The notes under the pieces were generated by a model. The model had not been told where the DNA came from and made no database searches. It worked only from the letters and a program-made list of their open reading frames with translations. Of a DNA stretch of 64,000 nucleotides, positions 6,685-53,076 are shown one piece after another (position 1 is the first letter of the stretch; every line of letters starts with the position of its first letter). The position numbers were made by a program, and so were the translations under genes. The stretch lies in assembly GCA_948144175.1 (NCBI GenBank), contig CANXME010002092.1, positions 310,001 to 374,000 of the forward strand. Direction: 5' to 3'. The DNA comes from Closterium sp. NIES-65 (taxonomy: Eukaryota; Streptophyta; Zygnematophyceae; Desmidiales; Closteriaceae).

Positions 6685-9465
6685 ATGACGCCCCCTGACG
6701 GCGATTATCTCCGTTTTCTCATCTCGAACAAGCTATTTTTCTATCCCCCTTATGTTCCGTCGCACGGCCGCCGCCACATCGATGCCTTAAGCGGAACCGT
6801 TGGGGCGGCCGCATCCCTTCCCCGCAGAAACGAACACGCCGCGGCGGGAGGTGGCCGCATCGGCGCGTCCAGGTGCGATGTATCGCACGAGCTGGAGCCG
6901 CGGCTCATCCGTGGCGCCGCCGCCCCCGCGTCTAGCCGCCGCTGTGAGCCACGCGGGGACGGCGACTCCTCCGTGAGCGCGGAACTGCTCCGAGTCGCCA
7001 TGATACGCAGCTGGTTGATCGCACCCGCTGCACCCCCTGCCGATTCTAGTAGATTCGCCTCGCCGCCCGTTACTACCGGCGCCCAGCAGCAGCTGTCAGC
7101 GGAGGAGGCGTGGCCACGGAAGAGGACGCGGGAGTCAGAACCGGCGGCGCCGGCAGAGCAGCCTGCAGCAGAGCAGGCAGCTGAAGAGCAGCCGGCGGCA
7201 GAGGCGCCGTGCAAGAGCTATAAAGTAGAGCAGAGCTATAAAGTGAGCCGACTCGGAGTCACGGCGAGGAGCGCCGCCGCGCCTCTCATTCCCGAGCCAC
7301 CTCAGTTGCCGTGCAACACTATCACATCAAATAGCAACCGTACCGGACCGCACAGCACCGGTCTCCTTCCCCAAGCACCGCGTACGTGGAGCCAGCACGG
7401 CAAGGCCGAGGCGCAGCTTTCCGGGGAAAGGGACCTGCAGTGCAGATCTCCTGTGGAAGGGCTGACCTTGCACGGCCCATGGGTTGGTACCAGCAGTGCT
7501 GGTACTACTAGTCCCACCATTGCCCTCGCGGAGGTCCCAGCCGCACAGAGTGCTGCCAGTGGCAAACCCGAAGGTTTCACTCCCCGGGCGGAGGCACTAG
7601 CAGCTGCTTGCAGTTGGGATGGGCGGCTGCTGGGGGAATCTAGCCAGGGCGTGGGGGGTGCGGCAGGGGAACGAAGCGGGGGAAGCGGGGAGAGTGGGGG
7701 AACGGCGGGACGGGCGGAAAGTTGGCCCTTTCGCTTTGAGGGAAACGGGGAGCGTGTGGATAGTGGGGGGCGGAATGCAAGCACCGTGTCCACATGGCGC
7801 GACTGGATTGGCTCGCGAGACTGGCAGGAGCTACAGCAGCAGCTACAGCACCAGCTGCTGCTGCAGCAGCAGCAGTGGTGGCGGCAGCAGCAGCAGGAGC
7901 AGGAGCAGCTGCAGCAGATGCAGCAGGAGCTACAGCAGCGGCTGCAGCAGTGGCAGCTGCGGCAGCAGCAGCGGCAGCAGCAGCAGCACGTGCAAGCATC
8001 TGCACAGGAGATGGAACGACAGCTGAGTCTTTTACCCTTTCAAAGGGCTTGCAATGGAGGCAACCAACCCCTGTTACACTCCCCTGCCCTCCCTCCCCCT
8101 CGCTCTGCTCCCAACACACACCCTCACAGCCTCCCAAAGGCCCCGGAACCACACACATCCTCAAAAACTTTTGCCGCCATTCCCTCCGCAGCCGATGCTG
8201 CCACCACACCACCTCTTTCTTCTCCCTTTGAAAGCACACACTCTCTGAGCTTCTTGCCTGCCAACCCCCACCATGCCGTTACTCCCTACCCAAGCAGCAG
8301 TGCTCCCGACCATTCCACTGCAGCCGCATCTGTTGCGAGAAACCCGGGATCAGGCAGAGGCCTTGAGGCGAGCTTTGAGGCGCCTCAAAACGCATCTCTT
8401 GCGAGGAACCCGGGATCAGGCAGAAGCCCGGCGTGTGGGTCAGTGGATCTGTCCCTTCGTTTGGGATTGAGCCAAGAGGCAGAAGAGAAAGAGGCAGAAG
8501 AGAAAGAGGCAAAAGAGAAAGAGGCAAAAGAGAAAGAGGCAAAAGAGAAAAAGGCTGCAGGGGGGGATGATGAAGGAGGTGCGGGTGGAGCAGACGAGCA
8601 AAGGGGAGTGTCATCCTGGGGATTGTTATCCATGCCAGGCCATCAGTGGTACGCCCCTTATGGGGGATGCACCTCGTGTGACGCCAGGTCTCATAAGTCA
8701 GCTTTTGCAGCGTTGAGCGACCCTGTGTGTTGCCTCAAAGCGGTTGGGCCTGTGGAGCCGGGCTTCAGCGCACCTGTGCGCGCACATGGCGTTGAGACTT
8801 CTCAGGAGCCAGGTTTCAGGGCGTCTAGTTTTGAGGCGCCTCAAAGCCATGTGGCTTGTCTCATGGCTGTTGGGCCTGTGGAGCCGAGTTTCAGAGCACC
8901 TGTGGAGCCGAGTTTCAGCGCACCTGTGGAGCCGAGTTTCAGCGGACCTGGGCTTGAGTCGCATCACAAGCCGAGTTTCAGGGCGCGTGTGCATGCACGC
9001 GGCATGCAGCGGCGGAGCAGCCCATTCACACTGCCAGCTGTTCCCGAGGGCTATGCACTGCCGCATGGTAGAACCTGGGCGTGTGAGTTTGCTAATGCTG
9101 CTGCTACCGCTGTTGCTGCCGCTACTGCCGCCGCTGCTGCTGCTGCTCCTGCTGCTCCTGCTGCTCCTTCTCGCGCTGCTGCTGGCGCATGTGTGGAAGT
9201 GTCTGGGGGGTATGCAATGGCGCGGGACAGCATCTGGGAGTGTGAGTCTGCTGCTCCTGCTGCTGCTGCTGCTGTTGCTGGTACTGCTGGTTCTGGTGCT
9301 GGCCTAACAGAGAGCATCTCTCCTAGTGAGAGCAGGGGCAGAAGTGTGTACGATGATCATGCGCTGCTGTATCAAATCAACCTGGAGCGCCACATGAGGG
9401 GCAAGGGGAGGATGGGAGGCGAAGGGGAGAGGGCCGAGGCATCCCTGTGGGATTGGGCAGTGTGA
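6685..9465 (+). CDS. hypothetical low-complexity Gln/Ala-rich protein (926 codons) with EAR-like motif
   Basis: I do not recognise the family. One uninterrupted frame of 926 residues, assuming no introns. Residues about 150-180 are Ala/Pro/Glu-rich around a basic KRTRE. Residues about 385-445 are a Gln-rich segment that could form a coiled coil. Near residues 585-592 lies DLSLRLGLS, an LxLxL pattern like the EAR repression motif of plant regulators. It is followed by five 5-residue EAKEKE-type repeats (8476-8550). Ala runs occur near 9110-9190 and 9245-9290. Palindromic repeats inside the frame are read as FEAPQ. The C-terminus (ALLYQINLERHMRGKGRM) has two degenerate copies downstream. A nuclear regulator is possible, but much of the openness could come from GC-rich triplet repeats. 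Confidence 0.4.
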   Translation: MTPPDGDYLRFLISNKLFFYPPYVPSHGRRHIDALSGTVGAAASLPRRNEHAAAGGGRIGASRCDVSHELEPRLIRGAAAPASSRRCEPRGDGDSSVSAELLRVAMIRSWLIAPAAPPADSSRFASPPVTTGAQQQLSAEEAWPRKRTRESEPAAPAEQPAAEQAAEEQPAAEAPCKSYKVEQSYKVSRLGVTARSAAAPLIPEPPQLPCNTITSNSNRTGPHSTGLLPQAPRTWSQHGKAEAQLSGERDLQCRSPVEGLTLHGPWVGTSSAGTTSPTIALAEVPAAQSAASGKPEGFTPRAEALAAACSWDGRLLGESSQGVGGAAGERSGGSGESGGTAGRAESWPFRFEGNGERVDSGGRNASTVSTWRDWIGSRDWQELQQQLQHQLLLQQQQWWRQQQQEQEQLQQMQQELQQRLQQWQLRQQQRQQQQHVQASAQEMERQLSLLPFQRACNGGNQPLLHSPALPPPRSAPNTHPHSLPKAPEPHTSSKTFAAIPSAADAATTPPLSSPFESTHSLSFLPANPHHAVTPYPSSSAPDHSTAAASVARNPGSGRGLEASFEAPQNASLARNPGSGRSPACGSVDLSLRLGLSQEAEEKEAEEKEAKEKEAKEKEAKEKKAAGGDDEGGAGGADEQRGVSSWGLLSMPGHQWYAPYGGCTSCDARSHKSAFAALSDPVCCLKAVGPVEPGFSAPVRAHGVETSQEPGFRASSFEAPQSHVACLMAVGPVEPSFRAPVEPSFSAPVEPSFSGPGLESHHKPSFRARVHARGMQRRSSPFTLPAVPEGYALPHGRTWACEFANAAATAVAAATAAAAAAAPAAPAAPSRAAAGACVEVSGGYAMARDSIWECESAAPAAAAAVAGTAGSGAGLTESISPSESRGRSVYDDHALLYQINLERHMRGKGRMGGEGERAEASLWDWAV
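7830..7993. repeat. CAG/CTG trinucleotide-rich tract
   Basis: Interrupted CAG repeats encoding the Gln-rich block of the long open frame. Both strands are open through it, which shows that openness here is weak evidence for coding. Confidence 0.85.
8325..8426. repeat. 36-bp tandem duplication split by the GAG-GCGC-CTC palindrome
   Basis: Copies at 8325-8360 and 8391-8426 match at 33 of 36 positions. Between them lies a 30-nt spacer containing TTTGAGGCGCCTCAAA (8374-8389). The duplication keeps the reading frame of the surrounding open frame (66-nt period). Confidence 0.85.
8730..8995. repeat. degenerate repeats of a GAGCCGAGTTTCAG unit separated by palindromes
   Basis: At least five copies of a unit around GAGCC(G/A)(G/A)GTTTCAG. 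Three junctions carry palindromes or decayed forms: TTGAGACTTCTCAGG (about 8793), TTTGAGGCGCCTCAAA (8830-8845) and TTGAGTCGCATCACAA (about 8953). Two further copies lie in simple tandem without a palindrome. Confidence 0.7.

Positions 9466-53076: not shown

Follow-up and report, generated by a model that had tools for sequence, protein, structure and literature searches.

A short palindrome between duplicated stretches of Closterium nuclear DNA: candidate copies of a very small mobile element

A short palindrome is dispersed through the genome of the alga Closterium sp. NIES-65, where it mostly sits between two direct copies of a stretch of host DNA. We studied it in a window of 64 kb of nuclear DNA (the whole stretch analysed, C1794:310001-374000, i.e., contig CANXME010002092.1), which is part of an 874-Mb assembly of 2,400 contigs, and in samples from elsewhere in that assembly. 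We hold with about even confidence that each palindrome is a copy of a tiny mobile DNA of the nucleus, which end joining captured at a staggered chromosome break. That each insertion and its duplication were made in one event is very likely, our confidence in this having been lowered slightly because a clean empty allele was not found.

The palindrome is real, abundant and genome-wide. Its exact 18-bp core, TTTTGAGNNNNCTCAAAA, occurs 30,327 times in the assembly, against 4 times for the same pattern reversed, which serves as a composition control; a first-pass annotation of this DNA had noticed that the arms are conserved across sites of the window. These are counts of cores and not of independent insertions, many being in tandem arrays. 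The window, with 3 exact copies against a genome-wide mean of 2.2 per 64 kb, is therefore typical. With up to two mismatches allowed it contains 11 sites, while 100 shuffles of it average 0.25 and none reaches 11. A GCGC-centred core whose next base is not A has 4,779 forward and 4,826 reverse matches, and the control has 0 and 0. Our main sample consists of the window and 200 kb fetched around listed core copies (264 kb in total). In this core-biased sample, 54 of the 63 perfect palindromes with arms of at least 8 (low-complexity sequence excluded) are the core, and fragments of the core and its arms make up the 12-mers with the widest dispersal. Plain chance is ruled out by the window shuffles, the reversed-pattern count and the viral-contig control described below.

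The four central bases had been taken to be free, which they are not: the centre is likewise palindromic. This can be seen in a set of 137 sites with at most two mismatches to the core, drawn from the window, the 200 kb and 20 further GCGC loci, 81 of them isolated and 56 less than 110 bp from another site. The centre is TCGA, GCGC, ACGT or AATT at 118 of the 137; among the other 19, 16 are one base from a class and 3 are two bases away. Sorted by their halves, 118 centres are same-half, 18 are other, and just 1 is mixed-half (the mixed-centre pattern being TTTTGAGTCGCCTCAAAA), and the isolated sites divide in the same manner (66 same-half, 1 mixed, 14 other; n=81). Random joining of halves predicts 66% mixed centres, so a join of two separate half-elements is disfavoured.

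The duplicated host stretch on either side of the core is called X here. A flank score of at least 30 is reached at 22/23 isolated exact sites of the fetched 200 kb and, when up to two mismatches are allowed, at 37/47 isolated ones. Random positions in the 200 kb and the window also reach it in 875 of 3995 cases, because tandem duplications are common in this DNA. This tandem-repeat background is real and high, yet insufficient to explain either the 22/23 or the result of a second sample, for which 20 GCGC-centre sites were picked on other contigs, blind to their flanks and skipping visible arrays: 19 of these 20 score at least 30 and the remaining one scores 27. When left flanks are compared with the right flanks of other loci, 7/380 pairs reach 30, and the flanks of different sites are thus unrelated, as had been noted from the window. 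The exact pattern was also scored at 107 usable sites of viral contigs (from 120 loci listed, with contig ends and repeats excluded): none reaches 31, and 2 of the 107 have a palindromic centre. Control palindromes with shuffled cores are too scarce in the sample to serve for comparison (7 sites, 2 of them duplicated). The comparison of dispersed copies with controls that the first-pass annotation proposed was run on samples and did not refute its view: copies are mostly flanked by duplications, and viral-contig controls are not.

Under a stricter scoring, with up to two mismatches allowed, 63 of the 81 isolated sites pass, and at 43 of them neither X copy is more than 35 nt from the core. At these 43 clean sites X is 16-131 bp long (median 54), and the median insert is 30 nt. 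Two window sites have an X of 13 bp. Among 50 isolated sites with a flank score of at least 25, the structure U-X-insert-X-D is clean at 40, where X is 16-110 bp and five X pairs are 100% identical; at the other 10, a copy lies more than 40 nt away. Examples of 100% identical X copies are C6:109299, C6:123337 and L157.

Core and X decay together, so palindrome and duplication probably came into being at the same time. With an X identity of 97% or more, 9/9 sites have a palindromic centre and zero core mismatches. The corresponding values are 13/15 and a mean of 0.27 mismatches for 92-97% identity, 8/10 and 1.0 for 85-92%, and 8/9 and 0.56 below 85%, a trend that is not strictly monotonic and that is drawn from sites within the two-mismatch search. 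The youngest class differs clearly from the older ones in core mismatches, and a range of insertion ages is present. An assembly or adapter artefact is ruled out, since X identity at clean sites runs from 76% to 100% and the core decays alongside it.

Some copies extend well beyond the core. In the ACGT class the long arm reads ACGTG, 12 bases, then TTTTGAGAC, which matches 532 times forward and 522 times in reverse, against 0 for the control, and, judged by eye, AG stands at places 6-7 of the 12 bases in all but one of about 78 matches shown. Long arms with GCGC centres (L164, L167) and a TCGA centre (C6:62300) follow roughly the same scheme; the long-armed copy C10:347827 fits more poorly at its end. 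These few long copies suggest a full unit of about 54 bp, made of two arms of about 27 bp head to head, each approximately CNCGTG-N5-AG-N5-TTTTGAG-NN. A 54-base piece spanning one unit folds with a 24-bp stem. At 15 sites where both arms extend 5-30 nt, the outward bases agree at a mean of 3.9 of 5 places within a copy vs 2.0 between copies. For example, both shown arms are identical at C10:472586 and C229:20557, and those at C62:1415208 differ at two places. Because arms match better within a copy than from one copy to another, the unit is probably propagated as a hairpin or by copying of a single arm, and this agreement, together with 1 mixed centre against 118, makes it seem that each event uses one inherited palindrome rather than a template shared by all. 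Inserts can hold several units: at L157 two cores are joined AAAA/TTTT between identical 47-bp X copies, and further multi-unit inserts are found at C9, L165 and L172, several other clusters being ordinary arrays.

The junctions show no preferred target. At 54 junctions of 27 sites a target consensus is absent and base frequencies are near background, and at the same 27 sites the outer lengths beyond the core vary from 0 to 30 nt, unequal between sides, so that inserts are ragged on both sides. The first-pass annotation had offered two readings, a fold-back mobile element or a break-and-repair mark; both find support and may hold jointly. The element reading is favoured by an insert that is conserved, dispersed and palindromic (30,327 vs 4), while entry via break repair is favoured by the ragged ends, the lack of a target motif, the multi-unit inserts and a slight microhomology. 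We therefore propose a capture mechanism in which free units would exist as short duplexes or hairpins, and a nicking agent would produce chromosome breaks with long staggered ends. End joining would capture a unit at such a break, and copying or filling in of both overhangs would leave it between two copies of host DNA, which is the structure observed. Trimming of the outer ends would account for the shortened inserts, and capture of more than one unit for those that are seen to hold several. More tentatively, with somewhat less than even confidence, we suggest that this is its own class of nuclear mobile DNA: a gene-less, self-complementary micro-element that spreads as free DNA and colonises breaks by end joining. 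In that reading it has multiplied to tens of thousands in an alga closely related to land plants, duplicating at most about 130 bp of host DNA each time.

Retrotransposition is an unlikely source of these structures, although it has points in its favour. A short hairpin RNA would here be target-primed by a LINE-like (long interspersed nuclear element) reverse transcriptase, as a tiny SINE (short interspersed nuclear element), with spaced nicks yielding variable duplications. Target-primed insertion typically gives variable-length duplications, which are observed, the full unit folds as a hairpin, and copy number is high. However, the constant 3' end or regular tail that such elements carry is absent by eye, with an A-run in one or two of 40 inserts. 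Both ends are ragged and neither is constant, the 54 junctions show neither a target consensus nor a nick-site preference, and several units can lie within one insert. The centre is palindromic, though a loop need not be.

A repair scar formed without any mobile unit is slightly less probable still. Here both broken ends would receive TTTTGAG-NN and so on from an enzyme before being fused, much like telomere-to-telomere fusions. Such a process accounts for the symmetry, the missing target motif and the link with duplications, and duplications around other fillers are common in the sample. Against it, the variable positions of two arms match more closely inside a copy than across copies, and halves of different classes are almost never combined (1 vs 118).

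Two further explanations are very improbable. Palindromes promote breakage, and those observed could thus be pre-existing break hotspots around which duplications arise with no insertion, as the arrays whose units each carry a core might suggest. However, copying a core-containing stretch would double the core, and at clean isolated sites the two X copies come with a single core. Core decay also accompanies X divergence, and other palindromes with arms of at least 8 are few (9/63, on the same basis as above). A minimal miniature inverted-repeat transposable element (MITE) with imprecise ends, mobilised by a DDE transposase, would share the inverted repeats, dispersal, high copy number and flanking duplications, but is strongly disfavoured: duplications span 16-131 bp (43 clean sites), where a constant length of a few bp is expected, and the outer ends are not fixed, so there are no precise terminal inverted repeats (27 sites) and the centre is better kept than the ends.

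Several results weigh against capture with duplication, or against parts of it. Under the stricter scoring 18/81 isolated sites stay below a score of 30, and densities in the 200-kb sample are biased towards the core, since its stretches were picked around listed copies. The window itself holds three exceptions: an exact core with a GCGC centre at 13249..13266 has no clear flanking duplication (score 17), a core with an ACGT centre and two mismatches at 32293..32310 has no adjoining duplication and only a short distant one, and a degenerate core at 47618..47635 has none. The view that the palindromes lie at duplication junctions thus stands for most sites of the window, with no convincing duplication at 13249 and 47618, and the link is much stronger in the samples from elsewhere. 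Compared with regional control positions, four sites fail to stand out, with controls matching or beating them in 115/461 cases for 13074, 175/461 for 13249, 101/529 for 47618 and 55/486 for 37620; the sites at 8373 (23/443) and 10087 (31/443) are borderline. Of the arm pairs compared above, 4/15 match at only 2/5 bases. The microhomology (12/22 TCGA-class junction ends share at least 1 nt with the unit's next base vs 5.5 expected) is a small count and presumes a single arm sequence.

The palindrome is also not required for duplication. The sample contains 272 duplication pairs that do not overlap one another. The spacer is 10-79 nt in 101 and 0-9 nt in 6, the copies lie further apart in 76, and the two copies of a pair overlap in 89, which we assume are mostly arrays. 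Of the fillers of 12-80 nt, 21/101 include all or part of the core and 80/101 are non-palindromic. The process that duplicates host DNA around short inserts may therefore extend beyond the palindrome. A second filler family was not seen at the sensitivity of a 13-mer comparison across the 264 kb: 16/80 non-palindromic fillers have a distant 13-mer match vs 147/500 random 45-mers. Duplications with non-palindromic spacers occur in the window at 44603-44786, 45190-45492, 46297-46516 and 36988-37230, and many lie in L136-L155.

It also counts against the proposal that no clean empty allele was seen among the diverged paralogues compared. Two regions of the window, 11.3-14.3 kb and 31-33.5 kb, are paralogous in part, and the inserts at 13074 and 13725 in the first are apparently missing from the second. 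When the flanks of 13074 are joined, the gain is only slight (47.4 vs 42.0 unjoined), and the unjoined alignment sets the core opposite the ACGT palindrome near 32290. At 13725 there is no gain, with 95.0 when the right X is kept and 73.8 when the left X is kept vs 95.6 unjoined; the paralogous region at 32620 has one X copy of this insertion and no core, its left part being unalignable. The comparison is compatible with insertion and falls short of proof. For L157, the closest paralogue (C588, 98%) aligns from end to end and so probably carries the L157 insert too. A protein search with the open reading frame (ORF) at 6685-9465 gave a sole match, labelled NIES-65, and hence no cross-strain empty allele. 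Across the 264 kb, one informative paralogue pair was found, on C6, too diverged to decide. In this pair (L139:2248-2827 and L144:181-760), the outer blocks are conserved (perhaps exons) and the middle part apparently contains diverged pieces of neighbouring sequence, with a palindrome in one copy and none in the other.

Palindromic repeats of organelles are the nearest known kind, and the Closterium units could be grouped with them as one broad kind. The organelles of Volvox carteri contain very numerous, hairpin-forming short palindromic repeats, 14-79 nt in the plastid set, which have been proposed to be selfish; they proliferate in mitochondria and plastids, and their small nuclear shares are termed inert (PMC2670323). 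The main text of that paper contains neither 'target site' nor 'duplicat'. Both sets are short, hairpin-forming, dispersed and numerous palindromes of the green lineage, but those of Closterium are nuclear, with another core, a palindromic centre and a mostly long duplication. Yeast mitochondrial GC clusters are described with a putative target duplication, the target of GC42 being the dinucleotide AG, and with a copying mechanism that is unsettled (PMC4478555). Sponge repetitive hairpin elements, Allomyces double-hairpin elements and palindromes of Fusarium mitochondrial DNA are likewise very short and inferred to be mobile, the Allomyces elements reportedly without flanking duplications (PMC4478555, PMC2800124, PMC7218506). 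All of these are organellar. The Closterium units work like the Volvox repeats and the yeast GC clusters in being very short, spreading palindromes, and are set apart from them by compartment, by sequence and by long variable duplications. The Closterium units share the traits of being short, hairpin-forming and dispersed; an organelle location does not fit with an 874-Mb assembly, retrotransposon domains and a predicted gene.

Other systems share single features. Repair of staggered breaks or paired nicks can give duplications of up to about 100 bp when filled-in overhangs are joined by end joining (PMC8355091). The likeness is a direct duplication of tens of bp at the junction; the difference is that the source describes no recurrent junction insert, whereas Closterium has a conserved palindrome there. 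MITEs and fold-back DNA transposons have inverted repeats, high copy numbers and target duplications as the Closterium units do, but their duplications are of fixed length, their ends are precise and they are much longer. Helitrons, which have a CTRR end near a hairpin, are expected to lack duplications, which are present here at 22/23 and 19/20 sites. The protelomerase target palindromes of phage linear plasmids are perfect and of similar size (about 50 bp), but are single sites, resolved into hairpin ends by a telomere resolvase; we know of no dispersed copies of them with duplications. The Closterium palindromes lack some of the features that were tested for the nuclear families considered.

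The open literature on Closterium and palindromes yielded no title on the subject among the matches listed, and broader open-literature titles, again among the matches listed, included none that describes such palindromes; both searches covered open-access journal articles, with subscription journals and preprints outside their scope. The main text of the Closterium genome paper, which describes extensive gene copy-number variation, contains neither 'palindrom' nor 'inverted repeat' (PMC10407611). If our proposal is true, nuclear mobile DNA can be shorter than 60 bp and needs not define its own target duplication, and selfish palindromes of organelles are linked with the small tandem duplications that arise from staggered-break repair. 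Each insertion would add a small tandem duplication of host DNA somewhere in the genome, and would date itself, since its two X copies diverge over time. Copies in different Closterium strains could then be used to gauge break repair in nature.

Within the window, the duplications that the first-pass annotation named at 8325, 13061, 13650, 37592, 43894 and 52024 are present where it placed them. Of its weaker sites, those near 8840 (83%), 10090 (77%), 31760 (82%, degenerate core) and 38045 (89%) have duplications, and the one near 32300 is the site with a short distant duplication only. At 6/12 window sites, including the weak-scoring 13249, both X copies lie within 12 nt of the core.

The first insertion (8325..8428) has X copies at 8325-8362 and 8391-8428 (38 bp, 92%), with the insert at 8363-8390 and a GCGC-centred core at 8373-8390 that the right X adjoins. 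The second (8721..8904), in a region with further tandem repeats, has X copies at 8721-8778 and 8847-8904 (83%) and a GCGC-centred core at 8829-8846, again adjoined by the right X, with the left X ending 50 nt off. X and insert sum to 66 bp and 126 bp respectively, both multiples of 3. The two insertions share the frame of the predicted gene (ORF 6685-9465), where the peptide FEAPQ is encoded twice. A third, old insertion (10004..10195) has X copies at 10004-10065 and 10135-10195 (77%), a 69-nt insert and a core at 10087-10104. In the fourth (13061..13104) both X copies, 13061-13073 and 13092-13104 (12/13), adjoin the core at 13074-13091. The fifth (13650..13814) has X copies at 13650-13718 and 13743-13814 (72 columns, 81%) and a TCGA-centred core at 13725-13742.

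Further along, a degenerate-core insertion (31653..31883) has X copies at 31653-31751 and 31788-31883 (82%), with TTTTGAGTTGATTCATA starting at 31758. The insertion at 37592..37670 (X 37592-37622 and 37640-37670; core 37620-37637, TCGA) is nested inside a larger duplication, 37493-37574 and 37680-37761. That at 37982..38117 has 55-bp X copies at 37982-38036 and 38063-38117 (89%) around an AATT-centred core at 38038-38055. A truncated palindrome at 43894..43935, TTTTGAGGCGCCTC from 43909, has a shortened right arm and X copies at 43894-43906 and 43923-43935 (13/13). The last insertion (52024..52097) has 22-bp X copies at 52024-52045 and 52076-52097; 0/529 regional control positions do as well. 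Its core, 52050-52067, sits within a 26-base palindrome with the centre TTGA, which folds as an 11-bp stem.

The window is eukaryotic, nuclear DNA of the zygnematophycean alga Closterium. A local alignment covering 46% pairs the protein of ORF 6685-9465 at 100% identity with a Closterium sp. NIES-65 'unnamed protein product', which otherwise lacks one internal stretch of the ORF protein. Copia- and Gypsy-type retrotransposon domains are present, three flanked by paired repeats, and a Copia protein has 86-89% identity to its first ten matches, all Closterium. An RNA gene was rejected as an explanation: an Rfam scan of the window gave zero matches at the gathering threshold, and ARAGORN found no transfer RNA either there or in the stretches L136, L142 and L145. 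A blastn search of phage records with 13640-13830 gave zero matches. The long terminal repeat (LTR) retrotransposon regions of the window (15164-20696, 24436-30354 and 58984-63760) make up about 1/4 of it and hold 0/11 of its palindromes, perhaps because they are younger.

Tandem arrays with a core in each unit occur at L142:7990-8155 (C6:107990; 37-bp unit), L145:1439-1668 (C6:131439; 53 bp) and L154:6176-6319 (C10:378176; 42 bp), and look as if X-core units had been multiplied afterwards. At L145:7344-7500 (C6:137344) there is a minisatellite of about 20 bp made of half cores (TTTTGAGGCACTTT...) with a full centre at its end, and L152:6661-6685 (C10:352661) is a larger-loop variant, TTTTGAGAGTTGAGAGGTCTCAAAA.

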